From positions 124,001 to 188,000 of the forward strand of contig NZ_JACSIT010000154.1 in assembly GCF_014349155.1 (NCBI RefSeq): a stretch of DNA of 64,000 nt, written 5' to 3'. The stretch is from Neolewinella lacunae (GTDB lineage Bacteria; Bacteroidota; Bacteroidia; Chitinophagales; Saprospiraceae). Under the pieces are notes generated by a model. That model made no database searches. It had not been told where the DNA came from and saw only the letters and a list, made by a program, of their open reading frames with translations. Below are positions 5,556 through 60,585 of this stretch, piece after piece. How positions within the stretch are numbered: position 1 is the first letter of the stretch; each line of letters starts with the position of its first letter. The translations under genes were made by a program, and so were the position numbers.

Positions 5556-5614
5556 TGCTCTCCCCCATTGGGGGTTGGGGGGTATCCCCCTGCACTGCAC
5601 CTGCGGCTGCGCCC
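5556..5614. repeat. Composite repeat: G/C hairpin module plus NotI-core variant
   Basis: A C-run/G-run hairpin (CCCCCATTGGGGG followed by TTGGGGGG, about 5561-5582) is followed by GCACCTGCGGCTGCGCCC at 5597-5614. The latter is the 18-bp repeat core in reverse orientation with one mismatch. It lies in the gap between the patatin stop and the cytochrome start. The same two modules are joined at 41.4 and 46.1 kb. Confidence 0.7.
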
Positions 5615-5680
5615 AACATGACGTACTGCAAAGCAAATAACGGCTACTGGCCTGGAAAACCCTGCCCTTCTCCTCGTCCC

Positions 5681-6709
5681 TCAGCCCTCAAAAAAAGCGC
5701 GCAATTCTTCCCGCCGGTGGGCAAACACCTGCCTGGCGAAGGTCTCGATGGCGTCGAGCTGCTCGCGGTCGGTGACGTCAATTTTCAATTTTTTGTCCTT
5801 GAGCACGGCGGGGGCGGCGGCCGATTTGTAGTAGCCCGAAAGACGGTAAAACTGCCGGGGAGCGAGCACCTGCTGCAAGACGTGCTGGGTAAATTCCATG
5901 TTGGTGTGAATGACCAGGCTGATGAGCCGCCCCATCCACTTGATGAGGCCCCACTGCCCGGTGCCAATTTTTTTGCGCGGGACGTAGGAGCTGCCATCGG
6001 AGCCGCAGCCGAGGGACAAAAAGCGGAGGTCGGTGGGCTGCAAGCCGAGGCCCTGGAGCCCGCCCGGCAGCAGGCTTTGCCCGGGGGCGGCGGGCTGGGC
6101 GTTGAGGCAAAAAGCCAGGGCAATGAGGCCGGGGTCGTTGGCGTAATTGCCACTTTCGCCGTAACGGCCGAAGAGGGGGAGGTTGACGGCGGCGGCGGAG
6201 GTGCGCATGGCCAGGTCCACCAGTTTTTCGTGGGCGTCGGTGGTATGGGCAGAATTATAGACCACAACCTTGAAAGCGGGGGTCTCCCCCGGCGCCAGAT
6301 CGGGGCTCATGTCTAAAGTCCCGGTCAGGAAAATGGTATCGGTACCGTAGCGTTGGGCGACATCCCCCAGCGTGGTGGTGGAGCCGAGTTTTTCGCTCAA
6401 GAGCTGCTGGAGGTTATCATTGGGGTACTTCGGCCGGAAGAGATTGAAGGGGTTAAAAACCCGTCGCCAAAAATTGCGGGGCAAAATGAAGCTGGCCCGG
6501 TCCCGGTAAATCCCGGCGATCTCGGCAATGGGCAATCCGGCGGCGAGGCCGAGGGTGATGATGCCGCCAGTGGCGGAGCCGACGATGACGTCGAAGTAGT
6601 CCGTCACCGATTCCCCCGTCTCTTTTTCCCACTCGTGCAGGATGGTGGCGGGAAAAAGACCGCGGGTGCCTCCGCCGTCGATGGATAAAACACGTAGGGG
6701 CTTGTGCAT
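5681..6709 (-). CDS. Patatin-like protein, predicted catalytically inactive
   Basis: A 342-residue soluble protein with a patatin phospholipase fold. The oxyanion-hole motif is intact at the N-terminus (SIDGGGTRG, residues 9-17), and the segment DYFDVIVGSATGGIIT (38-52) corresponds to the nucleophile elbow. The usual sequence there is G-T-S-T-G; here it is G-S-A-T-G, so position 46, where the catalytic Ser should be, is Ala. The partner Asp normally found in DGG..ANNP also seems lost: the segment reads ESGNYANDP (185-193), with Glu at that place. It may bind lipid without hydrolysing it, or use another residue. It is the last gene of a four-gene operon, 35 bp after a lipoprotein gene. Confidence 0.8.
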   Translation of the reverse strand: MHKPLRVLSIDGGGTRGLFPATILHEWEKETGESVTDYFDVIVGSATGGIITLGLAAGLPIAEIAGIYRDRASFILPRNFWRRVFNPFNLFRPKYPNDNLQQLLSEKLGSTTTLGDVAQRYGTDTIFLTGTLDMSPDLAPGETPAFKVVVYNSAHTTDAHEKLVDLAMRTSAAAVNLPLFGRYGESGNYANDPGLIALAFCLNAQPAAPGQSLLPGGLQGLGLQPTDLRFLSLGCGSDGSSYVPRKKIGTGQWGLIKWMGRLISLVIHTNMEFTQHVLQQVLAPRQFYRLSGYYKSAAAPAVLKDKKLKIDVTDREQLDAIETFARQVFAHRREELRAFFEG

Positions 6710-6744
6710 GGCTGCTTGTTTTTATTGGGCGGGGGGAATGGGCA

Positions 6745-7773
6745 TTAGTGGTTAAGGTAGGTGGCGAAGGACGGGTCGTTGGCGCGGGCCAGGAGCCGGG
6801 CGCGGATTTCTGCGGCGGCGGGGTCGGTCCGCAGCAACTCCAGCAGGCGCTGGTGGTGCGCCTGGAATTGCTGTTTGCCGGTGTACTGGCTTTGGTGCTC
6901 CCGGAGGATGTTCCGGAGGATTTCCTGTTGGTCGTCGGCAGCTGCCAGGCGCTGTTGCAGGTCGGCCATCGTCTGGTCGTAAGCCGATTGCGAAGGGATA
7001 GCGTCGATGGATTTGGTGAGATTAACGAGCAAATCGCGCTGCCTGCGGGCCTGGCTGTTTTTGCGCATCCAGAGCACGAAAAACAGGAGGGACAGGGCCA
7101 GCAGTACTCCCCCACCAGCCAGGGCGATGGTGCGCACGGTTTTGGAAATCTTTCCGGAGGTTCGGTCAATATCCCCCGTCGTTTTGCCTACCGCCAATTC
7201 CACCTTATTCAAAAGGCTATCGAGTTCCGGACTGCCCAGCATATTGTCAAATGCATCCACTAGAATGGCGCTGGCCAGCGCACCCGTTTTTTCGCCCAGC
7301 AGGGAATCACGGAGCAGGAGGATGCGGCCTTCGGCGGCGGCGTTGAGCAGCGTAGGCAGGGCGCGCGCCAGGCTTTGATCGAGCTGGCGCGTAAGGTCCA
7401 GCAGGGCCATGTGGAGTTTCACTTCCAGCGGGTTCAGCGCTGCGGTATCGGCCAGGAGGTGGTGGAGGCCGCCTTCTGCGTCGGCCATCAAAGCATTCAG
7501 GCTGGTCCGCACGGAGTCTTCTAGTCGCCGGATGCTCACGGAGTCGAGCTCCGCCTGCACGGATTGCCCCGCAGCGTGGACCAGGCGCGCCACCAGCTCA
7601 TCGAGCCTGGCGGTATCCAGCCCGCTGGCCAAGCCGCGCGTCAGGTTTTCGCCAATGCCCGGAGCTTGCTGCTTTACCTCCACCAGGCTTTTTTTTACGG
7701 TATTGACCACGCCACAGCCCGCTGTCAGCAGCATTCCGCAAACGAACCACAAAAGGATAGAGAGCTGTTTCAC
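6745..7773 (-). CDS. Lipoprotein with helical domain and internal membrane segment
   Basis: A 342-residue protein beginning with a lipoprotein signal (MLLTAGC, Cys at about residue 20). A long helical region rich in Leu, Ala and Arg follows, then one strong membrane segment around residues 216-236 (IALAGGGVLLALSLLFFVLW), then a charged helical tail with repeated Q, R and L. With a lipidated N-terminus and a later membrane span, the tail would lie in the cytoplasm if the protein stays in the inner membrane. Its start overlaps the stop of the flavoprotein gene by 4 bp, a sign of translational coupling, and the patatin gene follows after 35 bp. I do not recognise a family; a scaffold for the patatin is a guess from gene order. 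Confidence 0.65.
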   Translation of the reverse strand: MKQLSILLWFVCGMLLTAGCGVVNTVKKSLVEVKQQAPGIGENLTRGLASGLDTARLDELVARLVHAAGQSVQAELDSVSIRRLEDSVRTSLNALMADAEGGLHHLLADTAALNPLEVKLHMALLDLTRQLDQSLARALPTLLNAAAEGRILLLRDSLLGEKTGALASAILVDAFDNMLGSPELDSLLNKVELAVGKTTGDIDRTSGKISKTVRTIALAGGGVLLALSLLFFVLWMRKNSQARRQRDLLVNLTKSIDAIPSQSAYDQTMADLQQRLAAADDQQEILRNILREHQSQYTGKQQFQAHHQRLLELLRTDPAAAEIRARLLARANDPSFATYLNH

Positions 7774-9284: not shown

Positions 9285-9296
9285 TGTTCAGGAGGC

Positions 9297-10019
9297 TTAG
9301 TCGTAAAGCTGGCGTTGGACGCGTACCTCGGGATGGAGGTAAAGCGCCGTCCATTCGGTCGTCCAGGCTCCCACTACGTGTACGATAATGGTGGGCAACA
9401 GGCTCCCCGATTCCAGGGTGGCGTAGGCCATAATCAGTCCGTAGGGAATGCTGCCCACCGAAATGCGGTTGTTCTTGAAGTAGTGGATCATGCCGTACAT
9501 GCCCGTACTCACCAGCAGGGCCAGCCAGGTGCTGCCAGTATTCATAAATACGGATTGCAGTACCATCCCCCGGAAAAGAAACTCCATGCCCACCAGGTAA
9601 AGCAGCCAGAAAAAGGCGCTGCAGATGCACATGAGCGGTGTCCAGCAGGTCAGGCGAATCTCCGGGTATTCCAGCAAGTGGGCGCGGCCGCGGGTGGAAA
9701 GAAAGTTGAACAGCAGGGTGACGGGCAAGAGGCCCAAGAGCCAATACCCTACCGCAGGACTCCAGGCAAAACTGATCCCCAGGTCGACCAAACTGATGTC
9801 GCCCAACCACTTGAACCAGAACACCATCAGCAGCGGCACCCCGCCAAACAGAAAAGCGCCGAGCAGGCGCCGGCGGAGGATACGGCTGAAGTAAGACGAA
9901 TTAACGTCGTACTGGATCTGGAAAGATTTCGGCAAACGCAGCGAAGGGGACAGCGCGTACCAGAGGATAAAGCCCAGGGTTCCCGTAAGTAGCGACAGGA
10001 TCAGGTAATCGGTAGCCAT
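9297..10019 (-). CDS. CPBP family (Abi/Rce1-like) intramembrane protein
   Basis: A 240-residue polytopic membrane protein with about six to seven hydrophobic segments. The core motif reads GMEFLFRGMVL, equivalent to EExxFRG of CPBP glutamic proteases, with Met in place of the first Glu. A His-containing helix (MYGMIHYFKN) and a third motif helix (LLPTIIVHVVG) follow, as expected for the family. Members either cleave membrane substrates or work in bacteriocin immunity and protein sorting; which applies here is open. The Met substitution may be a phylum variant, since aromatic residues at this spot are not rare in Bacteroidota. It is the first gene of the minus-strand operon ending with the patatin. 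Confidence 0.8.
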   Translation of the reverse strand: MATDYLILSLLTGTLGFILWYALSPSLRLPKSFQIQYDVNSSYFSRILRRRLLGAFLFGGVPLLMVFWFKWLGDISLVDLGISFAWSPAVGYWLLGLLPVTLLFNFLSTRGRAHLLEYPEIRLTCWTPLMCICSAFFWLLYLVGMEFLFRGMVLQSVFMNTGSTWLALLVSTGMYGMIHYFKNNRISVGSIPYGLIMAYATLESGSLLPTIIVHVVGAWTTEWTALYLHPEVRVQRQLYD

Positions 10020-10154
10020 GCTTAAAATGCTGGTGTTGGAGTACAGTTGTATTGCAACAAATTACCAGGATGTTACAACACACTCCAAAAATAGCGGCAT
10101 ATCGGCCCAACTAAAGTTATAAGCTCGCCAGTACCCACGCGGTGGCGCACATTT

Positions 10155-10172
10155 GGGCGCGTTCGCAGGTGC
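10155..10172 (+). repeat. NotI-core repeat, diverged copy
   Basis: GGGCGCGTTCGCAGGTGC, two mismatches from the 18-bp core. It lies 136 bp upstream of the CPBP gene, in the orientation seen before many starts. The surrounding gap (10020-10397) also holds an AT-rich stretch next to the CPBP start, a GACCCC/GGGGTC hairpin and a tandem repeat. Confidence 0.55.
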
Positions 10173-10231
10173 CGGGTGATGGACGCAAAAAAAAGGAAGT
10201 CAAACGCCACTCAGCAAACAGCAAAGCACTT

Positions 10232-10260
10232 CACCCCCCCAGACCCCGGAGGGGTCGAAC
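10232..10260. repeat. C-run plus GACCCC-GGA-GGGGTC hairpin
   Basis: A run of seven C is followed by the perfect palindrome GACCCCGGAGGGGTC (10242-10256). It belongs with other short hairpins between genes of this genome type and could act as a weak terminator. It sits directly before the 39-bp tandem repeat. Confidence 0.5.
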
Positions 10261-10280
10261 TTTAATAACCCCGGATGAAG

Positions 10281-10386
10281 GATGCAAAGCAACCGTAATC
10301 CGGGGATACCCCACGTAAGCATGCAAAGCATCCGTAATCCGGGGATACCCCACGTAAGGATGCAAAGCATCCGTAATCCGGGGTGG
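10281..10386. repeat. 39-bp tandem repeat, about 2.7 copies
   Basis: Units begin at 10282, 10321 and 10360, each starting ATGCAAAGC; the first two contain CCGTAATCCGGGGATACCCC. The period is exactly 39 bp, so the plus-strand reading is a 13-residue repeat (MQSIRNPGIPHVR), though no gene is likely here. The third unit breaks off at CCGGGG. It ends 12 bp before the stop codon of the secreted hydrolase. Confidence 0.85.
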
Positions 10387-10397
10387 GGAGATAAACA

Positions 10398-11819: not shown

Positions 11820-11945
11820 GACCGGTTAATTTTATAGCCAAAGATAATTCTTTGCCTTAACCCTGCTCGCTATCCCCGTTAATGGCTGAGGATGTTTCGA
11901 GGGGACACTCTCGGGGAGTGTACTTCGCTGGGGCGTCTTTTCCCT

Positions 11946-11963
11946 GCACCTGCGACCGCGCCC
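11946..11963 (-). repeat. NotI-core repeat, one-mismatch copy
   Basis: GCACCTGCGACCGCGCCC, reverse orientation of the core. It ends 50 bp before the start of the Wzi-like gene and reads toward it, in the gap between two divergent genes. Confidence 0.7.
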
Positions 11964-12012
11964 CCTTCGTTTGCCAAGTCCAGGCATGCCCGGGCCGTCG
12001 TACCTTTCGGCC

Positions 12013-13800: not shown

Positions 13801-13809
13801 GGGGGGCTC

Positions 13810-16202: not shown

Positions 16203-16220
16203 GGGCGCGGCCGCAGGTAC
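16203..16220 (+). repeat. NotI-core repeat
   Basis: GGGCGCGGCCGCAGGTAC, one mismatch, followed by CAGGGAAGTGAGGCAAAGAGCA, which fits the extended part of the family. It lies between the convergent stops of cdsA and the next gene. Confidence 0.8.
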
Positions 16221-17652: not shown

Positions 17653-17670
17653 GCACCTGCGGCCGCGCCC
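17653..17670 (-). repeat. NotI-core repeat
   Basis: An exact reverse copy, GCACCTGCGGCCGCGCCC, preceded by CCCG as in several other copies. It lies between the permease stop and the start of the small uncharacterised gene. Confidence 0.85.
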
Positions 17671-18879: not shown

Positions 18880-18987
18880 AGTGCGCGTTCGCCCGTTTAC
18901 CGGGCGGCGCAAAGATAGTATGGGCTTTGGCGGCCAATGTTAAGTGAGGGTTAAGTTCAAAAGTTGTGCCGCTGCTGCGCAGCTGCG

Positions 18988-19270
18988 TTTTGAACCACTA
19001 AGAACACGAAGAGGGGCTAAGTAAGACAGTTTTGAACCACTAAGGACACGAAGAGGGACTAAGTAAGACATTTCTGAACCAATAAGGACGCGAAAAGGGG
19101 CTTAGCCAAGTAGGGGAGCTGCGCTCCTTGTTTGAACCACTAAGAAAACGAAGAAGGACTAAGAAGAGAAGGGACCCTGCTGCGCAGGATCTTTTTGAAC
19201 CACTAAGAAAACGAAGAAGGACTAAGTTTAAACACCCTTAGTGCCTCTTCGTGTTCTTAGTGGTTCAAAA
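18988..19270. repeat. Cluster of GAACCACTAAG repeats
   Basis: Five direct copies start at 18988, 19030, 19071, 19130 and 19193, and one inverted copy occupies 19237-19270. The unit is about 34 bp: TTTTGAACCACTAAGAACAC followed by GAAGAGGGACTAAG. The last direct copy and the inverted copy can form a long hairpin before the pfkA stop. The gap 18880-19290 contains nothing else that I recognise except short GCTGCGCAGC palindromes between units. Confidence 0.9.
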
Positions 19271-19290
19271 GAAAGAGCGAAGCTCTCCCT

Positions 19291-21278: not shown

Positions 21279-21296
21279 GGGCGCGGCCGCAGGTGC
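21279..21296 (+). repeat. NotI-core repeat
   Basis: Exact copy GGGCGCGGCCGCAGGTGC with a long extended match: CAGGCAAGTCGAAAAGGAGC follows. It lies 115 bp upstream of the GlcNAc-kinase-like gene, reading toward it in the preferred orientation. Confidence 0.9.
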
Positions 21297-22386: not shown

Positions 22387-22419
22387 TTCCTCAGCAGCAA
22401 GTTCATTAGCCGCAACTAT

Positions 22420-22470
22420 GAACTACTGAACTACAGAACTACTGAACTACTGAACTACCGAACTACCGAA
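22420..22470. repeat. 8-bp tandem repeat (AACTACTG type)
   Basis: About six units of AACTACTG, AACTACAG or AACTACCG in a row. The stop codon of the minus-strand hydrolase (22463-22465) lies inside the last unit, so the repeat forms the end of that gene. Confidence 0.8.
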
Positions 22471-23257
22471 CCCCTAACCTCCCCAGCCAGTCCAGCACGA
22501 TGGCATTATACCCCACCTGGTCTTCAAGATTGCAAAGGTGGCCCCGGCCTTCCATCACCATCAGTTCGGCCCGGGGAGCGTGCTTTTGGGCGTAGCGTTC
22601 GGCCGCCTCCAGAAAAACGTGGTCTTGGCTGCCCATCACCAGCAAAGCAGGAACCCGCAGCGGACGTTGGTAGAAACTGCGCACCACACTGAAGAAATCC
22701 TGGTAGAGGCCCAGCCACTTCAGGAAGTCGCCCGGCGCCAGCTTTTTCGACTGCCGCCGGTACATCTTGCGGCTGAAGGCGTGGTTCTTGCGCGGCATCA
22801 CGATGATGATGAAAGAGTCATAGATCCAGCGAAAAGGAACGAAGTAGCTCAGGAATTTGCCGCTGTGCGCAAAAGCCCGGATGCGCCAGTCGGCTTTGAA
22901 TACGCCCCCGGCCATGATCATTGACTTGATCATGCTCGGCCGCCGGTCATCGAGCTGCTGCAAGATGATGCTGCCCAGAGAAAGGGACATAAAATGAGCT
23001 TGCCGGATCCCGATGTGGTCCAGCGTCCGCACCACATCGTCGGTCACAATGTCAAAGTCGTAACTGTCGTAGTCAGGGTGCATATTTTTGCTGCCGCCGT
23101 GGTCGCGCAGGTCCAGCAAAGCCAGGTTGAAGTGATCCTGGAATGCCGCAGCCTGGTGCTTCCAGGTCAGGGAACTCCCCCCGGCCCCGTGGATGAAAAC
23201 GATCCAATCCAGGGCATCGTCCTTGCGGATCAAGTCGTAGTGCAGCAGTTCGTTCAA
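22463..23257 (-). CDS. Alpha/beta hydrolase
   Basis: A 264-residue soluble hydrolase. The oxyanion strand is DWIVFIHGAGGSSLTW (residues 17-32), then LALLDLRDHGGS. The nucleophile elbow reads MSLSLGS, so the central Ser is present though the first small residue is Ser rather than Gly. The acid is likely in LVMGSQDHVF and the His in EGRGHLCNLE. No signal peptide is visible. The nearest types are esterases or MhpC-like C-C hydrolases. It has no operon partner. Its stop codon is supplied by an 8-bp tandem repeat. Confidence 0.8.
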   Translation of the reverse strand: MNELLHYDLIRKDDALDWIVFIHGAGGSSLTWKHQAAAFQDHFNLALLDLRDHGGSKNMHPDYDSYDFDIVTDDVVRTLDHIGIRQAHFMSLSLGSIILQQLDDRRPSMIKSMIMAGGVFKADWRIRAFAHSGKFLSYFVPFRWIYDSFIIIVMPRKNHAFSRKMYRRQSKKLAPGDFLKWLGLYQDFFSVVRSFYQRPLRVPALLVMGSQDHVFLEAAERYAQKHAPRAELMVMEGRGHLCNLEDQVGYNAIVLDWLGRLGVR

Positions 23258-24155: not shown

Positions 24156-24166
24156 CTCCTTCTCTT

Positions 24167-24220
24167 CTTAGTCCTTCTTCGTGTTCTTAGTGGTTCAAAA
24201 TATCCTGCGCAGCAGGGTCC
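24167..24220. repeat. GAACCACTAAG repeat, single inverted copy with GCTGCGCAGG partner
   Basis: CTTAGTCCTTCTTCGTGTTC leads into TTAGTGGTTCAAAA (24167-24200), followed by TATCCTGCGCAGCAGGGTCC. The second part is the complement of GACCCTGCTGCGCAGGAT beside the copy at 19193, so the two modules travel together. It lies between convergent genes and may end transcription. Confidence 0.85.
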
Positions 24221-24259
24221 CTCCCTTCCACCTTTACATCTTTCCCCCTTTACTCCTTA

Positions 24260-26110
24260 CTAACCTACCAATTCCCCCGGTCGCTTCTTCCTGAGCGTGC
24301 CCGCACTACTGGTGCTGCGCAACACGCCTTTTTCCCCGACGTTGATTTCTGCGGCATTGCCCTCGTCGGTATCGATGTGCATCTCCAGGCGGTAGTCAGG
24401 AGAAACGCGGATGAGGACGTTGCCAAAGACGAGGGAACGCTCGCCGCTGCCTACGGCCACTTCGACGATGTCGCGGTCTTTCACCCCAAAAACGGCGGCG
24501 TCCTCAGGAGTCATGTGGATGTGTCGCCAGGCGCAGATCACGCCGTCTTCCAGGTCTACTGTACCGGCCGGGCCGATGAGTTTGCAGCCCGGGGTGTTTT
24601 CTACTTTCCCCGACTCGCGGATCGGCGCGTCAATGCCCAGAAAGAATTCGTCGGTCCGGCTGATTTCCAGCTGATCGGCGGAGCGGACGGGCCCCAGCAC
24701 CCGTACCCGCTCGATCTGGTTGCGGGGGCCAACGACGGTAACGAGCTCCTCGGCGGCAAACTGCCCGGGCTGGCTGAGCCACTTCTTTACGGTCAGCTCA
24801 TGCCCCTTGCCGAAGAGTTGCTCGACGGTTTCCTGGCGGAGGTGGATGTGGCGGGCGGAGATGGCAATGGGGATGGCCGGCAGGGTATTGACGGCGTCTT
24901 CCTGGGCAATGAGCTGCCCGCACTGCCGGGCAATGGCCAACTGCTCGTCCGTACGCACGGCGAGGAGCTTCACCCGGCTGTGCTGCATGCTGAAGTCGAA
25001 TACCGGTGCCTGGTCGCTCAGTTTGGCGGAGTGGTTCTTGTCTTCGTTGATGATGGCCCCGAGAAAATCGAGGCGCTGGGCCGCACGGTGGCGGATGACG
25101 GGGCTGTTCTCGCCGATGCCGCCGGTAAATACGATGGCGTCCACGCCGCCCATCACCGCAGCGTACGCCCCGATGTATTTCCGCAAGCGGTGGGTGAAAA
25201 CCTGAACGGCCAGCTGGCAGTCAGGGTCGCCTTCCGTAGACCGCTGAAGAATGGTGCGCATGTCGTTGCCCGCCCCGGAAAGTCCCGCCAAACCACTCTG
25301 GCGGTTCAACAGTTCATCGAGGGCCGCAGGGCTCAGGCCAGCCTGCTCGTGGAGGTAGCGGATCAGGCCGGGGTCCACATCGCCCGAGCGGGTCCCCATC
25401 GCCAGGCCTTCCAGCGGGGTCATGCCCATGCTCGTCTCTACCGAACGGCCAAATTCGATGGCGGCCACGCTGCAGCCGTTGCCCAGGTGGCAGGTGATGA
25501 TGCGCAGGTCCCGCGTCTCCGCCCCGAGGTGCTTGGCGGCCACGGCGGCGACGTACTGGTGGCTGGTGCCATGGAAGCCGTAGCGGCGGATGCCGTGCTC
25601 GGCCAGCAGGGCCTTCGGCAGCGCGTAGGTCTTGGCCCGGTTGGGCAGACTCTGGTGAAAAGCCGTGTCAAAAACCGCAAAATGATCGACCGCAGGAAAC
25701 AGTTCCTGGGCCGCCTGGATGCCGCGCAGGTTGACCGGGTTGTGCAACGGAGCCAGTTTGGCCAGGCCGGCAATTTTTTCTTCCACCCCGGCGTCAATGC
25801 GCACCGCCCGGTCAAAAGCCTCGCCGCCGTGAACGACGCGGTGGCCAACGCCGGCCAGCTCCGTATCCGCCAGCTTCTCCTTCAGTGCTTCGAGGCAGGT
25901 GGCGATGGCCCGGTCGGGACCCTTGCCGCTCAGTTCCAGGTGGGTTCCATCCGAGAAGTCGATGACCGGCGCATCGAGCAGCCGTTCGGCGTTCATTTCC
26001 AGCAGGCGGGCGCCCGTTGCGGGGTCAATGACGGCGGCCTTTACCGAAGAACTGCCGGCGTTAATCACTAAGATGTTCACGGAGGTGGGGTTTGCAGGGG
26101 GAAACGGCAA
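24260..26110 (-). CDS. ackA/pduL: Fused acetate kinase and PduL-type phosphotransacylase
   Basis: A 616-residue two-enzyme protein. Residues 12-400 are a full acetate kinase: LVINAGSSSVK, VGHRVVHGGE, RYGFHGTSHQYV, HLGNGCS and MGTRSGDVDPG, with TDEQLAIAR at the end. From about residue 408 a full PduL phosphate acyltransferase follows: ISARHIHLRQETVEQLFG, a metal-binding HxH, then GPVRSADQLEISRTDEFFLG, CAWRHIHMTPEDAAVFGV with a second HxH, and RLEMHIDTDEGNA. Together they turn acetyl-CoA and phosphate into acetate and ATP, or the reverse, with acetyl phosphate as the internal intermediate. No shell genes are near, so a microcompartment is unlikely. The ATG at 26110 is used; a GTG at residue 11 is possible. 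Confidence 0.9.
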   Translation of the reverse strand: MPFPPANPTSVNILVINAGSSSVKAAVIDPATGARLLEMNAERLLDAPVIDFSDGTHLELSGKGPDRAIATCLEALKEKLADTELAGVGHRVVHGGEAFDRAVRIDAGVEEKIAGLAKLAPLHNPVNLRGIQAAQELFPAVDHFAVFDTAFHQSLPNRAKTYALPKALLAEHGIRRYGFHGTSHQYVAAVAAKHLGAETRDLRIITCHLGNGCSVAAIEFGRSVETSMGMTPLEGLAMGTRSGDVDPGLIRYLHEQAGLSPAALDELLNRQSGLAGLSGAGNDMRTILQRSTEGDPDCQLAVQVFTHRLRKYIGAYAAVMGGVDAIVFTGGIGENSPVIRHRAAQRLDFLGAIINEDKNHSAKLSDQAPVFDFSMQHSRVKLLAVRTDEQLAIARQCGQLIAQEDAVNTLPAIPIAISARHIHLRQETVEQLFGKGHELTVKKWLSQPGQFAAEELVTVVGPRNQIERVRVLGPVRSADQLEISRTDEFFLGIDAPIRESGKVENTPGCKLIGPAGTVDLEDGVICAWRHIHMTPEDAAVFGVKDRDIVEVAVGSGERSLVFGNVLIRVSPDYRLEMHIDTDEGNAAEINVGEKGVLRSTSSAGTLRKKRPGELVG

Positions 26111-26155: not shown

Positions 26156-26173
26156 GGGCGCGGCCGCAGGTGC
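26156..26173 (+). repeat. NotI-core repeat
   Basis: Exact copy GGGCGCGGCCGCAGGTGC, 46 bp upstream of the AckA-PduL start, reading toward the gene in the preferred orientation. AGTGCACGTTGAAGGAGCGA follows and fits the extended family. Confidence 0.9.
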
Positions 26174-26507: not shown

Positions 26508-26525
26508 GCACCTGCGGCAGCGCCC
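26508..26525 (-). repeat. NotI-core repeat, one-mismatch copy
   Basis: GCACCTGCGGCAGCGCCC ends 24 bp before the ftsY start codon and reads toward it, so it should lie in the ftsY leader. Confidence 0.75.
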
Positions 26526-32197: not shown

Positions 32198-32215
32198 GCA
32201 CCTGCGGGAGCGCCA
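32198..32215 (-). repeat. NotI-core repeat, diverged copy
   Basis: GCACCTGCGGGAGCGCCA, three mismatches from the reverse core. It lies between the T9SS gene and the sigma54 activator, 208 bp before the latter's ATG and reading toward it. A TATCTTTG box (32292-32299) follows, but no TTG sits at the right distance. The 346-bp gap shows nothing else clear. Confidence 0.5.
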
Positions 32216-35719: not shown

Positions 35720-35737
35720 GGGCGCGGCCGCAGGTGC
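35720..35737 (+). repeat. NotI-core repeat
   Basis: Exact copy GGGCGCGGCCGCAGGTGC, followed by CGGGGAAAGGGACTGAGGAG and CAAAGCCCC, one of the longest extended matches. It lies between the thioredoxin-fold gene and the tonB-like gene. Confidence 0.9.
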
Positions 35738-35851: not shown

Positions 35852-36712
35852 ATGATGCTTTATACCTTTAGTGGCACTGCGGTGCTGCTGGGCTTGGCCG
35901 GACTCTGCTTGCTCCTGGCCCTGACCGTAGTCTCGCTGCGCCGGATTTTGCGCCAGCAGGCCACTGGCCAACGCACGAAAAACGCCGCCTTCAGTTTCAC
36001 CGGCCCCGTCCAGCAACTCAGCCTTTGCGCAGCCATCGCCGCAGCCTTCGTCACCATCAACTGGACGCGTTTTGCTGCCGAACCTACCCAGTACGCCGCC
36101 TTTGAAGTGATCGAAGACCTCATTGAGGTGGACATTCCTACCTTTTATGCCCCACCGCCGCCACCACCGCCCCCGCCACCGGTCATTGAAACCGCCCCCG
36201 TAATTGAAGTGGAGCCCGAAGAATTTGTCAGCCTGGACGTGGCAGCAGACGAGGCCGTCCCTCCCCCCGCTCCGCCACCCGCCCTCGCACCTGCGGCCGC
36301 GCCCGTCCCCCCACCCCCTCCCCCGCCGGTGGACTACGGCACGGACCAGGAATTTTTGTTCGTAGAGCGCATGCCCGTTTTCGGCCAGGAATGCCGCGAA
36401 CTCTCCGGCGACGCCCGTAAGGCCTGCTCCGATCGTGCCCTGCTCGCCTTTGTACAGTCGCGCGTACGCTACCCCGCCATGGCCCGGGAAAACGGGCTGC
36501 AGGGGACGGTAGTGGTGAGCTTCACCGTAGAAAAAGACGGCAGCATCAGCGCCATCGAGGCCGTCCGAAAAATAGCCGGTGGCTGCACCGAAGAAGCCCT
36601 CAAAGCCGTGGAAGCCATCAACCGCGAAGGGCAAAAGTTCACGCCCGGTATGCAACAGGGCCGCCCGGTAAGGGTCCGGTTCAACCTGCCCATTAAGTTT
36701 ACCTTGCAGTAG
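35852..36712 (+). CDS. tonB: TonB-family energy transducer
   Basis: A 286-residue protein that links inner membrane proton force to outer membrane receptors. Two hydrophobic segments lie near residues 8-28 and 55-70, so the N-terminus may span the membrane more than once. A proline-rich periplasmic spacer runs from about 92 to 165, with runs of ten and seven Pro. The C-terminal TonB domain has VRYPAMARENGLQGTVVVSF, then VEKDGSISAIEAVRKIAGG and VRVRFNLPIKFTLQ. A perfect copy of the NotI-core repeat (36287-36304) is part of the reading frame and encodes APAAAP in the spacer. A hairpin terminator follows the stop. Confidence 0.9.
   Translation: MMLYTFSGTAVLLGLAGLCLLLALTVVSLRRILRQQATGQRTKNAAFSFTGPVQQLSLCAAIAAAFVTINWTRFAAEPTQYAAFEVIEDLIEVDIPTFYAPPPPPPPPPPVIETAPVIEVEPEEFVSLDVAADEAVPPPAPPPALAPAAAPVPPPPPPPVDYGTDQEFLFVERMPVFGQECRELSGDARKACSDRALLAFVQSRVRYPAMARENGLQGTVVVSFTVEKDGSISAIEAVRKIAGGCTEEALKAVEAINREGQKFTPGMQQGRPVRVRFNLPIKFTLQ
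36287..36304 (-). repeat. NotI-core repeat inside tonB coding sequence
   Basis: An exact reverse copy, GCACCTGCGGCCGCGCCC, read in frame as Ala-Pro-Ala-Ala-Ala-Pro within the proline-rich spacer. The spacer tolerates such residues, so this copy may be an insertion or a chance match. Confidence 0.75.
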
Positions 36713-41429: not shown

Positions 41430-41490
41430 TTGCTCCTCGTCCGAACTCCCCCCTTTGGGGGGCCGGGGGGGAGCACCTGCGGCCGCGCCA
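41430..41490. repeat. Composite repeat: TTGCTCCT part, G/C hairpin, NotI core
   Basis: TTGCTCCTCGTCCGAA is followed by CTCCCCCCTTTGGGGGGCCG with more G (41446-41471), then GCACCTGCGGCCGCGCCA at 41473-41490 (one mismatch at the last base). The TTGCTCCT part belongs to the extended NotI repeat, so the hairpin looks inserted into an older copy. Confidence 0.8.
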
Positions 41491-46046: not shown

Positions 46047-46128
46047 TTGCTGCTCCCCCTGTGGGGGTTGGGGGGCGAACCAACTCCCCCCTTCGGGGGG
46101 TCGGGGGGGAGCACCTGCGGCCGCGCCC
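46047..46128. repeat. Composite repeat: two G/C hairpins plus NotI core
   Basis: Two hairpin modules (CTCCCCCTGTGGGGGTTGGG at 46053 and CTCCCCCCTTCGGGGGGTCG at 46084) are followed by an exact reverse core, GCACCTGCGGCCGCGCCC, at 46111-46128. It fills the gap between the amidohydrolase stop and the AbiE operon. Confidence 0.85.
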
Positions 46129-46129: not shown

Positions 46130-47530
46130 TTACTCCCCCTTTAAGGGCCGGGGTGCCCGCACCACCTTGCCGTGCTTCATCACCATATCCACACCCTGCA
46201 GCAGGGCGATGTGGCGCAAGACGTCTCCTTTGACGGCAATGATGTCGGCAAATTTGCCCGCCGATACCGTGCCGTAATCTTTGTCCACCCCCATCATCTT
46301 CGCCGGCCAGTAGGTGGCCGCCTTGATGGTGTACATGCTGGGAATGTCAAATTCGTTGGTCCACACGTCCAGCTCATTCCAGGTGCTTTGGCAGTGGAAC
46401 TTCATGGGGATGCCCGAGTCGGTGCCCACCAACAGCACTACCCCGGCGTCCCTCAATTCTTTCACCTTGCGCTCCAGCGTGGGCCGGCGGATGGGCGTAA
46501 GCTGGAAGTAAGGCAGCTGCCCCGGGCGGTGGAGGCTGGCGCGGATGTCTTCAATAATTTCGGGGGTGAGGCCCTCGTGCCAGCAGTCGTTGTCCAGCGC
46601 CTCCGGGTTATCGCGGGTGTACTCGTAGTTGTACAAGCCCTCCACGGTGGGCGTCCAGTAGAGTGGCCCCAGGTTCATCTGCGCGGTGCGTTCGCGGATC
46701 ATCTCCAGGATGTCTTCGGGATAGCCGGGGGCGGAGCTCAGGCCCGTGTGCTCAAAGCAATCGACGCCCGCCTGGAGGCCGCGGCGGATCTCCTCCGGCC
46801 GGTGGCTGTGGGCCACCACGGTGAGCCCCCGCCGGTGGGCCTGATCAACGAGCGCCATGAAGGCATCCAGCGGAATCTGGTCTTGGTCCACCACCTTGAT
46901 GCAATCTACCCCGGCGTCGGCCAGCTGGTTGACCTTGGCGCGGGCTTCGGCGACGGACTGCACCGCCCAGCGAAAATCTTCCGTCCCGGGGTAAGGCGCG
47001 TACTGCAAAAATGGCCCGGAAACGTAGAGCGTCGGGCCCAGCAGTTCGCCCTTGTTGATGCGGTCGCGGACGGAAAGCGATTCCCGCAGCGGCCCGCCGA
47101 GGTCGCGGGCGCTGGTGACGCCGGCCATCAACAATTGCTTGGCGCTGGCGGGCATGATGATCTCTTCGAGGTAGGGCGGCATCACGCTGTCCCAGTACCC
47201 ATAGTCGCTGTGGCCGTTGATCATCAGGTGCACGTGCATGTCCCACAGCCCCGGTAGCACGCTCATCCCTTCGGTGGAGATGATCTCGGCCCCGGCGGGG
47301 ATAGGGACCTCGGCGCGGGTGCCCACTGCCTTGATGCGCTCGCCCTCAATCAGGATCACGCTGTTGCGCAGCGGCGTCCCCCCGAAGCCATCGATGAGGG
47401 TTCCGCCCACCAGGGCTTTGACTTTATTGCTGGTTGGCGGGTCCGTTTTGCTGCCCGGTATTTCTTGCTGGGCGCGGCCGCAGGTGCCGAAGAAAAGGAT
47501 AAGGAGCAGGGGGAGGTAAAAATGACGCAT
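46130..47530 (-). CDS. Exported amidohydrolase
   Basis: A 466-residue metal-dependent hydrolase with an export signal. The start is the ATG at 47530 (MRHFYLPLLLILFFGTCGRA); an open frame to 47635 precedes it. The signal could be cut after GRAQ or lipidated at the Cys. The metal-binding motif GLWDMHVHLM holds the first two His; TVVAHSHRPEEI and CFEHTGLSSA give the next, and LVGTDSGIPM the Asp. PDP-like imidazolonepropionase or prolidase relatives act on cyclic amides or dipeptides; the substrate is unknown. The end of the signal peptide is encoded by an exact NotI-core repeat. Confidence 0.85.
   Translation of the reverse strand: MRHFYLPLLLILFFGTCGRAQQEIPGSKTDPPTSNKVKALVGGTLIDGFGGTPLRNSVILIEGERIKAVGTRAEVPIPAGAEIISTEGMSVLPGLWDMHVHLMINGHSDYGYWDSVMPPYLEEIIMPASAKQLLMAGVTSARDLGGPLRESLSVRDRINKGELLGPTLYVSGPFLQYAPYPGTEDFRWAVQSVAEARAKVNQLADAGVDCIKVVDQDQIPLDAFMALVDQAHRRGLTVVAHSHRPEEIRRGLQAGVDCFEHTGLSSAPGYPEDILEMIRERTAQMNLGPLYWTPTVEGLYNYEYTRDNPEALDNDCWHEGLTPEIIEDIRASLHRPGQLPYFQLTPIRRPTLERKVKELRDAGVVLLVGTDSGIPMKFHCQSTWNELDVWTNEFDIPSMYTIKAATYWPAKMMGVDKDYGTVSAGKFADIIAVKGDVLRHIALLQGVDMVMKHGKVVRAPRPLKGE
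47470..47487 (+). repeat. NotI-core repeat inside the amidohydrolase signal peptide
   Basis: Exact copy GGGCGCGGCCGCAGGTGC, read on the minus strand as Gly-Thr-Cys-Gly-Arg-Ala at the cleavage region. CGAAGAAAAGGATAAGGAGC follows, as in other full-length copies. Confidence 0.85.
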
Positions 47531-51306: not shown

Positions 51307-51324
51307 GGGCGCGGCCGCAGGTGC
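51307..51324 (+). repeat. NotI-core repeat
   Basis: Exact copy GGGCGCGGCCGCAGGTGC, 54 bp upstream of the dinB start in the preferred orientation; CGGGGAAGTCAGCC follows. Confidence 0.9.
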
Positions 51325-51438
51325 CGGGGAAGTCAGCCAGCAACAACAAACCGTGGCAAACAACGGGCTTCGGAAGTTACAATGCAAACAAAATGTGTTA
51401 AATAATTTATTTTTCGGTAGCTTTTGACTGGGGAGTGG

Positions 51439-51469
51439 TTGGCGAACATGGCCCTTTGTCTTTTCTTTG
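51439..51469 (+). promoter_or_regulatory. Predicted promoter of the GNAT gene
   Basis: TTG at 51439-51441, a 20-bp spacer, then TTTCTTTG at 51462-51469, one mismatch from TAnnTTTG. The expected transcription start would fall inside the NotI-core copy that begins at 51469. Confidence 0.45.
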
Positions 51470-51487
51470 CATCCTGCGGCCGCGCCC
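51469..51487 (-). repeat. NotI-core repeat with 1-base insertion
   Basis: GCATCCTGCGGCCGCGCCC, the reverse core with one extra T. It ends 43 bp before the GNAT start and reads toward it. Confidence 0.75.
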
Positions 51488-51529
51488 TGCTGCCCTGGCT
51501 GCGTTACCACCTATCCACTTTCTTGTTGC

Positions 51530-52051
51530 ATGCACTACCGCTCCGCTACTTCCGCCGATGTACCCGCCATCGCTGCTCTCCACGCCGCCAGTTGGCAACG
51601 CACTTACCGGGGTGCTTTTTCGGACACTTACCTCGATGAGCAGGCCCCGGCCGAACGCCTGGCCACCTGGCGGGAGCGCTTTGCGGTTCCCAACCCCCGC
51701 ATGATCGTCACCGTAGCCGAAGACGATACCGGATTACAGGGATTTTGCTGTGTCTTTATGGACCATGACCAAGACGGTCACCTCCTGGATAATCTCCACG
51801 TCTCACCCGCTTACCAGGGCCAGGGGATCGGCAAACGCCTGATGCAACGCAGCGCCGCCCGCGTGGCCGAGCACGCCCCCGGGGGGGATATTTACCTGTG
51901 GGTGCTCACGGTCAACACCCCGGCCCTGCGGGTTTACGAAAGCCTGGGTGGGCGGCCGGGCCGCACCGAAGTCCAGCACTTCGCCGCCGGCAACCAGACC
52001 CCCGCTCTGCAAATGATCTGGAGGCTTGCCGACATGGCAGCGTTTACCTGA
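51530..52051 (+). CDS. GNAT family N-acetyltransferase
   Basis: A 173-residue acetyltransferase. The start is the ATG at 51530 (MHYRSATSADVPAIAALHAA). The acetyl-CoA loop is HLLDNLHVSPAYQGQGIGKR (R/Q-x-x-G-x-G type), followed by LMQRSAARVAEH and IYLWVLTVNTPALRVYESLG, the usual N-x-x-A-x-x-x-Y motif. The substrate is unknown. The last codons overlap the convergent glycosyltransferase gene by 8 bp. Confidence 0.9.
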   Translation: MHYRSATSADVPAIAALHAASWQRTYRGAFSDTYLDEQAPAERLATWRERFAVPNPRMIVTVAEDDTGLQGFCCVFMDHDQDGHLLDNLHVSPAYQGQGIGKRLMQRSAARVAEHAPGGDIYLWVLTVNTPALRVYESLGGRPGRTEVQHFAAGNQTPALQMIWRLADMAAFT

Positions 52052-53759: not shown

Positions 53760-53929
53760 CGTGGGGCAAAGGTAGTGCCCCCAGCGGCACGTCGTACGCC
53801 TCACTTGGGGGAGAGACTGCTGCCGCACGCAGGTGCCCCAAGCAATTGGGAACGGAATCCGGCCCGCGTTCCCCCACTAGCACTTATCTTAGCGGCCGAG
53901 AGTTTTTCTACCTACCAACATTTAATGGC

Positions 53930-55726: not shown

Positions 55727-55765
55727 TGATTTGAACCGCCTTTTTCCACCACGAGGACGAAAAAT

Positions 55766-55820
55766 TACGAGGGGCAGTGAGGGTGCACTAAAAAATAGTG
55801 CACCCTCACTGCCCCTCGTA
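55766..55820. terminator. Perfect 25-bp hairpin between convergent genes
   Basis: Arms 55766-55790 and 55796-55820 are exact complements (TACGAGGGGCAGTGAGGGTG plus CACTA) with a loop of five A. It is placed to end transcription from both sides, although the T run is short (TATTTAAAA). The stem is much longer than a usual terminator. Confidence 0.75.
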
Positions 55821-55841
55821 TTTAAAAGCAGCAGCTAAGCC

Positions 55842-57446: not shown

Positions 57447-57579
57447 GATTTTTGAATGCTGATGCGCACCGGGATTTGTTTTGCCACCCTGCGCAGGGCC
57501 GCCAGACGAAATCCCCAACGCGCGTGGGTACGGTGTAGACAACGCCGCAGTGGCGGGCAGGTTGACTCCAGCGGTGGCC

Positions 57580-58200
57580 TCAATGCCAGGCGGCCAACAG
57601 GCGGCCAATGGTGTCTTCGGGCAAACCCACGAGGTCTGCCCCTTCGAGGGGCCCGGCAGCATCGCCCGTAAGGCGGAGATCGGGAGTCCCGGAAAGGAGA
57701 TTGACCAAGACCAGAGACTGGCTGGCTTCCTCCTCCCCACACTTCAGCTGGTAGGACAGGAGAAAGTGTAGCGCGGAGGGCTCCAGCCACGGAGCGGGGG
57801 CGAGGCTGGCCGTGCGGTTAAAGACGTCCCCTGCACCTGCGGGCCGCGCCGCCTCCGTACCCGATTCGGTGGCCTGACAAGCCAGGGAATCCTGGTAAGT
57901 CCAGAGCAGCTCCGCCGCTGGAAAGGCCAGGCGGTAGCGCCGTAGGTAAATGCCCGAATAGTGGGTGGCAGGGTCATATTCCCGGGTCAAAACCATAAAG
58001 TAATCTTCTTCGCCGAGTGTGCCCACGTAGGTGTCCAGAATTTCGCCGGTTGATTGGGCCCGGAGCTGCTCGATTTGCTGGGCGCGATCGGCGTCCGAAA
58101 GGTAGCGGCGGTCGTACACCACCTCTGCGGGGGATCCGCCGCAGGCAGTGAGGGCAACGAGGAAAAACAGCAGTAAGCTGAGCAGGCGAAAATCAGTCAT
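57580..58200 (-). CDS. Lipoprotein of unknown function
   Basis: A 206-residue lipoprotein (signal LLSLLLFFLVALTACGG, Cys at about residue 20). The mature part is of mixed alpha/beta type with GTLGEEDYFMVLTREYDPAT and YRLAFPAAELLWTYQDSL. Its middle (ESGTEAARPAGAGDVFNRTA) is encoded by a NotI-core copy with one extra base, so this segment may be an insertion. It lies 36 bp after the sigma-partner gene on the same strand and may be the last gene of that operon. No family recognised. Confidence 0.6.
   Translation of the reverse strand: MTDFRLLSLLLFFLVALTACGGSPAEVVYDRRYLSDADRAQQIEQLRAQSTGEILDTYVGTLGEEDYFMVLTREYDPATHYSGIYLRRYRLAFPAAELLWTYQDSLACQATESGTEAARPAGAGDVFNRTASLAPAPWLEPSALHFLLSYQLKCGEEEASQSLVLVNLLSGTPDLRLTGDAAGPLEGADLVGLPEDTIGRLLAAWH
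57833..57850 (-). repeat. NotI-core repeat inside lipoprotein coding sequence
   Basis: GCACCTGCGGGCCGCGCC, the reverse core with one inserted G; read in frame on the minus strand as Gly-Ala-Ala-Arg-type residues. Confidence 0.65.
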
Positions 58201-58236
58201 CAGATGAGTAAAGCTTCCGAATCTTTCGGTGGTTCG

Positions 58237-59880: not shown

Positions 59881-59882
59881 GG

Positions 59883-60434
59883 TTATCGGCCTAGGGAGGT
59901 GAGCATTTTTTGCAATTTTCCCCGGGCTTTCACCAGGTTAGAGCGGCTGGTACTTTCGGTGATCTGGAGCTGCTCCCCGATTTCCCGGTGGCTGTAGCCT
60001 TCCACTACGTAAAGGTTGAAAATCGTCCGGTAAGTAGGTGGAAGCTGCTGAACGGCGGCCAGGATCTCCCGGGCGCCGAACTGGGCAAAGATGTCGGGGG
60101 CGTCGGTGCTTACGTTGTACGCTTTATCAAGGTCTTCCGTCCGGCGGCGGCCATTACGACGGTATTGATCGATGGCCGTGTTTACCGTAATACGGCGCAT
60201 CCAAGCCACCAGCGCCGTCCCACTTTCGTAGTGGCTGATCTTCTTAAAAATCTTGATGAAACTCTCGTGGAGCAAGTCCATGGCCTCGTCGTCACTACCG
60301 GCGTAACGCTGGCAGATCGACATCAGGGTACCGTAGTATTCTTCGTAGAGCAGGCGCTGGGCTTCGCGGTTGCCGCGGGCCAGGGCAGCGATAAACTGCT
60401 GTTCGTTCTGGTGAATAGTTAAGGTGTAATCCAT
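59883..60434 (-). CDS. ECF-type RNA polymerase sigma factor
   Basis: A 183-residue sigma70 factor of the extracytoplasmic function group. The ATG at 60434 (MDYTLTIHQNEQQFIAALAR) is chosen because region 2 begins right after it; the longer frame crosses a repeat. Region 2 has YEEYYGTLMSICQRYAGSDD, EAMDLLHESFIKIFKKISHY and ALVAWMRRITVNTAIDQYRR. Region 4 is LPPTYRTIFNLYVVEGYSHR with EIGEQLQITESTSRSNLVKA. The partner gene starts 2 bp after the stop, as in sigma/anti-sigma operons. A NotI-core copy lies 134 bp upstream in the preferred orientation. Confidence 0.93.
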   Translation of the reverse strand: MDYTLTIHQNEQQFIAALARGNREAQRLLYEEYYGTLMSICQRYAGSDDEAMDLLHESFIKIFKKISHYESGTALVAWMRRITVNTAIDQYRRNGRRRTEDLDKAYNVSTDAPDIFAQFGAREILAAVQQLPPTYRTIFNLYVVEGYSHREIGEQLQITESTSRSNLVKARGKLQKMLTSLGR

Positions 60435-60567
60435 GGTCGAAAGGATATGAGTGGTAGCAGCCAAAGCGCGCTTAAAGACCGTAAAGTAAACGTTTTTTGC
60501 CTTTCCTCCGCTGCTTTGCCCCCCTTTATTTACGGTATTCGCAGTTGGCGGACGATTTTTAATACCC

Positions 60568-60585
60568 GGGCGCGGCCGCGGGTGC
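60568..60585 (+). repeat. NotI-core repeat, one-mismatch copy
   Basis: GGGCGCGGCCGCGGGTGC (A to G). AGGGTAAGGAAGAGCGGAGC and AAAGC follow, fitting the extended family. It is 134 bp upstream of the ECF sigma gene. Confidence 0.85.

Follow-up and report, generated by a model that had tools for sequence, protein, structure and literature searches.

The window analyzed here, a 64,000-nt stretch of a Neolewinella lacunae contig, contains 18 copies of a short repeat, GGGCGCGGCCGCAGGTGC, when both strands are searched with up to three mismatches (Table 1). Under the same criteria, 100 dinucleotide shuffles of the window gave a mean of 0.38 copies and at most 3, which bears out the dense, dispersed repeat family described in the original prediction as something other than a product of chance. 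Seventeen of the 18 sites listed in that prediction are among the copies found here (its site at 51469 being the copy at 51470), and the copy at 9680 was missing from it. The remaining listed site, at 57833, is related without being a plain core, as it has one extra base between its two halves. The estimate of "nine or so" exact or one-off copies was too low, since 8 copies are exact and 6 carry one mismatch. The window also holds another repeat family, with five direct copies lying within 240 bp.

Table 1. Copies of the repeat in the window, with strand and surroundings
Position	Strand	Copy	Surroundings
5597..5614	-	core copy, 1 mismatch	intergenic
9680..9697	+	core-like copy, 2 mismatches; poor tail; possibly chance	antisense in CAAX-protease-like gene
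10155..10172	+	core copy, 2 mismatches	intergenic
11946..11963	-	core copy, 1 mismatch	divergent predicted genes on either side
16203..16220	+	core copy, 1 mismatch; tail box AGAGCAGTG	predicted stop codon 34 nt before
17653..17670	-	core copy, exact	predicted stop codon 39 nt before
21279..21296	+	core copy, exact; then tail AAGGAGCGAAG	
26156..26173	+	core copy, exact	convergent with 26508
26508..26525	-	core copy, 1 mismatch	convergent with 26156
32198..32215	-	core copy, 3 mismatches	intergenic
35720..35737	+	core copy, exact; tail CGGGGAAAGGGACTGAGGAGCAAAG	predicted stop codon 9 nt before
36287..36304	-	core copy, exact	antisense in predicted gene; proline/alanine-rich stretch (APAAAP)
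41473..41490	-	core copy, 1 mismatch, long form; G/C-rich hairpin separates core from tail box	
46111..46128	-	core copy, exact, long form with hairpin	predicted stop codon 1 nt before
47470..47487	+	core copy, exact	antisense near predicted gene start; signal-peptide-like stretch (GTCGRAQ)
51307..51324	+	core copy, exact	intergenic
51470..51487	-	core copy, 3 mismatches (core end GGATG); tail present	
57833..57850	-	4-nt-spacer variant GGCGC-GGCC-CGCAGGTGC	
60568..60585	+	core copy, 1 mismatch; tail AAGAGCGGAGCAAAG	

The motif consists of two half-sites, GGCGC-N3(4,5)-CGCAGGTGC. Matches to GGCGC-Nk-CGCAGGTGC numbered 294 at k = 3, 13 at k = 4, and 6 at k = 5, with none at k = 0 to 2 or 6 to 9, and the control gave none at any k. 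A weaker box, GGAGCAA, lies about 14 nt downstream of the core. In 1.264 Mb of the genome, this box was found with at most one mismatch within 75 nt after the core in 163 of 311 copies, compared with 42 of 310 control stretches taken 300 nt further on; the one-sided extension to about 50 bp that had been reported earlier is therefore real but weak. The box follows 128 of the 268 short-form copies and 35 of the 43 copies of a long form that bears a hairpin. Sharp conservation is confined to the core in a profile of the copies that excludes those too close to the end of a stretch. When four of the window copies were folded as single-stranded DNA, they did no better than shuffled sequences, and an RNA or hairpin element was rejected for this reason.

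The 5.8-Mb genome contains 1,260 copies with at most two mismatches (636 and 624 on the two strands), compared with 4 and 0 for a reversed-pattern control in the same genome. A genome-wide count had been proposed as the check on a chance origin, and the result, hundreds of times the control, speaks against such an origin. Most copies are intergenic (225 of the 311 in the 1.264 Mb). Those within genes, 40 in sense and 46 in antisense, substantially fill five of the six combinations of frame and strand and sit, among other places, in signal-peptide-like and proline/alanine-rich stretches. Five in-gene copies were compared with homologues, and in the three that were informative, those in PheT, an OmpA-domain protein, and an aminotransferase, the motif aligns without gaps, indicating that the copies in these genes arose by substitution. 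The other two, in a Sir2-like and a hexosaminidase-like gene, were uninformative because the alignments to solved structures miss the motif.

A search of 60 genomes found the family almost exclusively in Neolewinella. Genomes of other genera contain 0 to 3 copies each and therefore share no set of places with the window, which disposes of the possibility, raised at the outset, that the same copies are conserved across distant genera. Within the genus, copies of the main word elsewhere number 994 in G018, 31 in G006, 7 in G010, and 2 in G001. Genome G010 has an unrelated word, GACTWNCAAAGTAGCANTG, with 512 copies and none in 39 other genomes. A further word, GGCGGCGGAGCGCAGGTA, is present 609 times in G001 and 183 times in its sister G006; other genomes of the genus have 1 to 93 copies and those of other genera 0 to 2. 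The G006 word is weak (the 183 matches to the G001 word compare with 3 in the control), and no 12-mer was present five or more times in 140 kb of this genome. No comparable word was found in 80 kb of G021, which belongs to another genus. The dialects follow phylogeny as judged from PheT, the only gene traced across the genus (19 of 21 genomes; G018, with a partial match, and G009, with none, were left out): GGCGGCGGAGCGCAGGTA belongs to the supported clade of G001 and G006 (99/99), and GACTWNCAAAGTAGCANTG belongs to G010, the longest, outlying branch of the tree.

The spacing of the copies differs between strands. In the genome of the window (G000), with at most two mismatches allowed, there were 2 same-strand pairs closer than 1.5 kb compared with 57 expected, and 66 opposite-strand pairs compared with the same expectation. 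Same-strand pairs are almost absent up to 1.5 kb and remain depleted out to 3 to 4 kb. At less than 3 kb there were 19 same-strand and 117 opposite-strand pairs, and 20,000 strand shuffles gave a mean of 67.9 same-strand pairs and a minimum of 45. The copies at 9680 and 10155 are the only same-strand pair below 3 kb in the 124-kb contig stretch that contains the window. On hold-out contigs the strand alternates in 141 of 190 neighbors. Seven other species together showed 1 same-strand and 43 opposite-strand pairs below 1.5 kb, using the same mismatch limit except in G001 and G005 (at most three mismatches) and in G010, where a degenerate 13-base pattern of its own word gave 0 and 14; two of the seven, G019 (12/24) and G014 (11/23), do not alternate individually. 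None of 691 control 7-mers reached the same-strand exclusion of the word; these replaced 9-mers as the control because at that frequency the 9-mers comprised only sub-words of the motif. Spacing along each strand is even (coefficient of variation [CV], 0.48 to 0.61), and the two strands carry nearly equal numbers of copies on each of the eight G000 stretches examined, as they do on stretches of other genomes; 200 kb of DNA in contig 1 of G019 showed no one-sidedness (11 copies on the + strand and 16 on the - strand). Convergent pairs closer than 200 bp are enriched, with 15 observed compared with 3.8 expected in one estimate and 2.1 in a second.

We hypothesize that the repeat serves as a self-DNA recognition word specific to the species, functioning much as a DNA uptake sequence does and spreading by substitution and recombination, and we consider the chances of this reading to be about even. 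A DNA-handling machine, presumably a protein, would read GGCGC and CGCAGGTGC at a separation of 3 nt (4 or 5 in rare cases), with the weaker box some 14 nt further on assisting, and would recognize them in a single orientation with respect to the way it moves. DNA bearing the word would be preferentially taken up, protected, or recombined, with natural transformation as the presumed process, and mutations creating or improving copies could then spread through the population via horizontal recombination (molecular drive), chiefly in tolerant sequence such as intergenic DNA, signal peptides, and linkers. As species diverged, the word would change, giving rise to dialects. Because the reading would be polar, a second copy on the same strand within about 3 to 4 kb would be redundant, and one on the opposite strand would not be.

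The closest known systems share several features with the Neolewinella word. The descriptions of Neisseriaceae DNA uptake sequences (DUS) in PMC3630211 and PMC2397512 include a short nonpalindromic word present in hundreds to thousands of copies, an intergenic preference with a minority of copies in genes, close inverted pairs, and clade-specific dialects. Unlike DUS, which have 10 to 12 bp, the word described here has an 18-bp two-part core and a tail, and unlike the DUS dialects, for which a common CTG core is described (PMC3630211), the word of G010 is unrelated in sequence. Same-strand exclusion is a feature of the Neolewinella word and is not among the DUS features in those descriptions (PMC3630211, PMC2397512). 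Pasteurellaceae uptake signal sequences (USS) are likewise described as abundant and relatively evenly distributed, with known inverted pairs at gene ends (PMC7811141), although their core has 9 bp (PMC1626085). In Haemophilus influenzae, uptake is reported to be independent of word orientation (PMC1939737), and by the account in PMC2346458 a general orientation bias of uptake words in genomes had not been observed by 2008; strand-specific exclusion is thus unlike what classical uptake would predict. It also bears on whether words spread by uptake bias alone, as an orientation-blind bias should not distinguish strands. In USS, a strong core is accompanied by weaker boxes at a distance of about one to two helical turns, and the Neolewinella word is similar.

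Of the competence core, ComEC was found in all 21 genomes of the genus and DprA in 20 (the miss is a genome that is 55% complete), and both prove little because they are widespread in the controls (10/14 and 11/14, respectively). The known receptor ComP is a type IV pilin. The predicted USS receptor is described as a minor pilin (PMC12616744). A convincing type IV pilus ATPase, which would be a further likeness to DUS, was not found in the 21 Neolewinella genomes: matches to the type IV pilus/type II secretion ATPase profile (PF00437), seen in 20 of them, were weak and partial, covering at most 84 of 370 profile positions, just passed the cut-off in 11 (about 25 bits), and were strongest in open frames of approximately 900 to 1,070 codons. 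We therefore liken the word to DUS and USS in its working and do not file it as a member of either. In favor of the uptake-like reading, Riemerella columbina (Flavobacteriaceae) has been reported to prefer its own DNA (PMC7965970).

The main rival is a Chi-like polar signal, which we regard as unlikely. Under this reading, an enzyme of the RecBCD/AddAB kind that processes DNA ends would travel along the DNA from a break, read the word in one orientation, and switch from degradation to recombination. Chi sites are asymmetric words with polar, strand-specific action, and if each strand needed its own copy every few kilobases, both the exclusion on the same strand and the independence of the strands, as observed over 3 to 4 kb, would follow. 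Phages would gain by carrying such a word, and three phage-like contigs, chosen for having several matches, do carry it, which counts against the uptake reading; uptake sequences reportedly accumulate in Pasteurellaceae prophages too (PMC7371117). Primase-, terminase-, and head-protease-like genes are present on the phage-like contig richest in copies, which therefore looks like a replicating phage; packaging by a gene transfer agent was considered and set aside. Known Chi words have 5 to 8 nt, are conserved among related genera, and favor the leading strand. The word described here is longer, with two half-sites and a tail, turns over between species of one genus, and is nearly balanced between strands on the stretches examined. 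Cyanobacterial HIP1 is likewise one word iterated genome-wide in one lineage (PMC4390886), but it is an 8-bp palindrome and hence strandless, unlike the longer, asymmetric Neolewinella word. Somewhat less probable than a Chi-like signal is that the repeat is a polar word of another sort, kept by selection and not by recombination drive, such as the site of a genus-specific protein that organizes, marks, or protects the chromosome or a polar polymerase stop on each strand. Near-fixed half-site spacing and even spacing along each strand would suit any regularly needed word. However, a site fixed at hundreds of positions would not be expected to change rapidly between species without something to spread it, and the near equality of sense and antisense copies within genes argues against a transcription stop.

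Two further explanations are far less probable. The exclusion could be a mere scar of deletions between direct repeats, with the function of the word being unrelated, since the DNA between two repeats can be deleted when they are direct but not when they are inverted. Deletions between repeats as short as 13 to 18 bases should be very rare, however, and the depletion around an 18-bp word is almost total within 1.5 kb and reaches 4 kb, holds for the 13-base word of G010, and coexists in the window with the closely spaced direct copies of the other family; we consider this reading very improbable. Least probable of all is a REP/BIME- or MITE-like repeat moved by a Y1 or other transposase, a possibility raised in the original prediction. 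The high copy number, short and mostly intergenic copies, one-sided tail, and hairpin of the long form are in its favor. The common form, however, has no inverted-repeat unit, only the core is sharply conserved, and the gapless in-gene copies (three of three informative genes), together with the four window copies that fold no better than shuffles, are not what insertion of a defined palindromic unit would leave. Y1 transposases (PF01797) do not track copy number either: they are present in 20 of 21 genomes of the genus, including G001, G006, and G010, and absent from G018, with its 994 copies. Transposition also does not predict same-strand exclusion. We therefore rejected a REP or transposase origin, and the near-fixed 3-nt spacing of the half-sites, the species words, and the strand-specific spacing point instead to a recognized DNA word.

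A bolder possibility, to which we give somewhat less than even chances, is that Neolewinella genomes carry a self-DNA address system resolved by strand. Each strand would have its own independent series of an asymmetric word peculiar to the species, spaced at about 8 kb and with a zone of 3 to 4 kb from which further copies are largely barred. A one-way DNA-translocating machine other than a type IV pilus would read the word, and the spacing would record the in vivo reach of that machine. Such a system would be the first in the Bacteroidota, with words that can be replaced outright within a genus. To our knowledge, Pasteurellaceae and Neisseriaceae are the only groups with proven self-recognizing uptake words. 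Another independent case, the third, from the Bacteroidota and with several dialects in one genus, would allow comparative study of how words originate and are replaced. The dialects offer a simple route to the reader, as a factor that changes along with the dialect, and strand-specific exclusion gives a polar process a quantifiable signature across the whole genome, which can be tested for wherever words are iterated.

The relatives compared are too distant for an intergenic empty-site comparison (75 to 78% protein identity in one gene). The genes flanking the copies at 51307 and 51470 were both found in one of 14 relatives, G002, where the copy at 51307 has no counterpart. The copy at 51470 has a likely counterpart there in the same orientation, 26 nt from the start of the neighboring gene (43 nt in the window).

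The window contained 18 copies of the 18-bp word GGGCGCGGCCGCAGGTGC at three or fewer mismatches, against 0.38 expected. Seventeen of the 18 places named in the original prediction were among them; the remaining one, 57833, proved to be a variant whose spacer is 4 nt long, and a copy at 9680 had been overlooked. The claimed excess over chance holds for the whole Neolewinella lacunae genome (G000; 5.8 Mb, 154 contigs), which at two or fewer mismatches carries 636 copies in forward and 624 in reverse orientation, compared to 4 and 0 for the pattern read backwards. In a profile of copies from an initial 464 kb, the 18-bp core had sharp edges, next to no conservation upstream, and a weak purine-rich tail extending to about +45. 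A larger sample of 1.264 Mb held 311 copies (159 exact, 106 with one mismatch, and 46 with two). The exact half-sites, GGCGC and CGCAGGTGC, were separated there by 3 nt in 294 cases, by 4 nt in 13, and by 5 nt in 6, and were never found at spacers of 0 to 2 or 6 to 9 nt (control, also 0).

The tail box, GGAGCAA, most commonly lies 13 to 16 nt past the core, as it does in 80 of 128 box-bearing short-form copies. A long form, represented by 43 of the 311 copies, has a G/C-rich hairpin directly 3' of the core; just 10 of the 53 hairpins of this type in the sample were located away from a core. The hairpin measures 24 nt in 36 of these 43 copies. In the long form the box is commonest 36 to 37 nt off (21 of 35). 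Of the 25 copies in which the box was found again after removal of the hairpin, 17 had a core-to-box distance of 12 nt, near that of the short form. Such distances would be expected of a strand able to fold out its hairpin, a capacity that single-stranded DNA could have. Two long-form copies that were folded did no better than shuffles.

Practically all copies of the core in the 60 genomes searched (G000 included) belonged to the genus Neolewinella (Bacteroidota, Saprospiria). Seventeen of the 20 other genus genomes had 109 to 1,362 copies each, three had few (G001, 2; G010, 7; G006, 31), and the 39 genomes from other genera had 0 to 3 each. In a named genome collection the exact core was matched by at least 89 stretches; of the 80 listed, 70 belonged to Neolewinella or to MAGs bearing the titles Lewinella, Saprospiraceae, or Bacteroidia, while the other 10 were lone matches from other phyla. 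Counting k-mers de novo in the three core-poor genomes revealed other words in two of them. The G010 word, GACTWNCAAAGTAGCANTG, occurs at 512 places at one or fewer mismatches, is absent from the 39 other genomes searched, and has no visible similarity to the core. The G001 word, GGCGGCGGAGCGCAGGTA, occurs at two or fewer mismatches at 609 places in G001, 183 in G006, 1 to 93 in the remaining genus genomes, and 0 to 2 in other genera; it has CGCAGGT in common with the main word and resembles the minor 5-nt-spacer spelling, which in G000 also bears the tail. In a PheT tree, G001 and G006 were sisters (99/99) and G010 formed the longest, outlying branch. No comparable word was seen in 80 kb of one genome from another genus. 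A stretch of the relative G002 (L104-L109) carries an 8-bp iterated word, TATCGCATATCGC, with 12-mers recurring 9 to 11 times in 120 kb, possibly as a tandem array.

Copies of the word exclude one another in a strand-specific manner. Neighbours in G000 were opposite in orientation in 225 of 303 cases; this alternation, first noticed on four stretches, was tested on four fresh ones, in which 141 of 190 neighbours were opposite (p 1.6e-11). When all pairs were counted, same-strand pairs numbered 2 at <1.5 kb (57 expected), 17 at 1.5 to 3 kb (57 expected), and 19 at 3 to 4 kb (38 expected), approaching normal past 4 to 5 kb, while opposite-strand pairs numbered 66 (57 expected) and 51 (58 expected) in the first two ranges. 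Spacing on each strand had a CV of 0.48 to 0.61. Strand shuffles with positions fixed gave 67.9 same-strand pairs at <3 kb (sd 5.8; minimum 45 of 20,000) against 19 observed, and exact copies alone gave 2 same-strand and 29 opposite-strand pairs. The same-strand share was 0.140 for the word versus a mean of 0.552 (minimum 0.385) for 691 control 7-mers of like frequency. Seven other genomes, pooled, had 1 same-strand and 43 opposite-strand pairs at <1.5 kb and 7 and 21 at 1.5 to 3 kb (32 of each expected in either range), with alternation in 114 of 179 neighbours; G010, with its own word, had 0 and 14 at <1.5 kb. Two single genomes showed no alternation among neighbours 400 bp or more apart (G019, 12/24; G014, 11/23). 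Convergent pairs at <200 bp were enriched, and divergent pairs at 200 to 1,000 bp were somewhat scarce (6 vs 15; 3 vs 8.5 in a second count).

A crude gene finder based on hexamers placed 225 of the 311 copies between genes and 86 inside genes, where an even spread would place 258. Five of the six frame and strand combinations were substantial among the in-gene copies (24, 21, 19, 15, and 6; the sixth, 1), and the encoded peptides were unrelated (ARPQV, GAAAGA, APAAAP), some resembling signal peptide ends (e.g., GTCGRAQ). Five in-gene copies were compared with solved proteins; the motif was covered in three alignments, all gapless there, and uncovered in two. Among the 21 genus genomes, PheT was traced in 19 (G009 gave no match and G018 a partial match only), and the 50 columns of the alignment displayed about the motif contained zero gaps. 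One clade of nine genomes (support, 88/86) bears the word or a close variant, degenerate in G015; the remaining ten lack it. At least the PheT copy thus arose by base changes and was inherited later. At the intergenic place 51307/51470, both flanking genes were kept in one of 14 relatives, G002, which has a likely counterpart of the 51470 copy and none of the 51307 copy. The syntenic comparison proposed earlier thus gave, in the single comparable relative, one copy likely present and one absent. Copies are therefore inherited in part and turned over in part. The REP-like nature hinted at in the original prediction did not hold up: copy number was not tracked by Y1 transposases, and this, with the gapless in-gene copies, led us to reject an inserted element.

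Same-orientation copies are mutually redundant and opposite-orientation copies are not. Since a process that merely required a fragment to contain the word would treat both orientations alike, the reader should be polar; it would travel along DNA and recognise the word in one orientation. Given polarity, dialects, origin by substitution, and genome-wide iteration, the closest resemblance is to recognition of self-DNA during DNA exchange, with recombination spreading the word. Competence genes are present in the genus (ComEC in 21/21 genomes, DprA in 20/21), but the search for an ATPase of a type IV pilus or T2SS turned up nothing convincing. The essential transformation genes found in Riemerella anatipestifer, also of the Bacteroidota, were ComEC, DprA, ComF, and RecA homologues plus four function-unknown proteins (PMC8459023); R. 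columbina shows a preference for its own DNA (PMC7965970). Uptake by H. influenzae is described in PMC1939737 as indifferent to word orientation, whereas the Neolewinella word has strand-specific spacing.

A Chi-like signal read by a one-way process would explain the polarity equally well, and phages bear on both readings. In a viral collection, 83 stretches match GGGCGCGGNCGCAGGTGC, many probably by chance; nine stretches from three contigs, chosen for several matches each, were examined. The host word there often has its tail. One phage-like 44.6-kb contig, with terminase-, head-protease-, primase-, and tail-fibre-like genes, has 10 copies at two or fewer mismatches in five stretches (37.4 kb summed, overlaps possible), several with recognisable tails. 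Phage-like contigs carrying the word also fit a Chi-like role, which nevertheless leaves two traits of the word, its length and its turnover, unexplained. For self-DNA recognition there is a parallel in Pasteurellaceae prophages, in which uptake words are said to build up (PMC7371117). Three stretches (L211, L236, and L257) each have one copy followed by similar sequence ending CTTCAT, in L211 antisense and ~40 nt inside an ORF start.

Literature searches of open-licence full text listed no paper recognisable as an account of word iteration in Lewinella or Neolewinella, of an uptake word in Bacteroidota, or of strand-specific spacing of uptake words. We group the Neolewinella word with self-recognition words that are iterated through a genome and stop short of calling it a proven DUS. 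Among other repeats in the window, 12-mers of a second family also recur elsewhere in G000, as does, in the genome sample, an 8-mer (AACTATGA) related to a tandem array.

Other features of the window, in-gene copies aligned with solved proteins, and phage-like contigs
Feature	Place	Description
39-bp unit	10278-10394	three tandem copies
Second repeat family, TTTGAACCACTAAG..ACGAAGA...CTAAG	18959-19283, 24158-24222	five direct copies spanning 240 bp, and inverted ones as well; adjoined by palindrome CTGCGCAG
Tandem array	22411-22474	8-mer TGAACTAC
One ORF	24260-26080	predicted acetate kinase/phosphate propanoyltransferase (PTAC) fusion
Inverted repeat	55763-55823	28-nt arms, 96% complementary, 5-nt loop
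In-gene copy, PheT		1 mismatch to core; gapless
In-gene copy, OmpA-type domain		exact core; gapless
In-gene copy, aminotransferase		2 mismatches to core; gapless
IMGVR_UViG_3300009467_000002	L211, L225, L240, L269, L274	phage-like contig bearing host word
3300012037_000001	L236, L239	phage-like contig bearing host word
2830033918_000001	L228, L257	phage-like contig bearing host word
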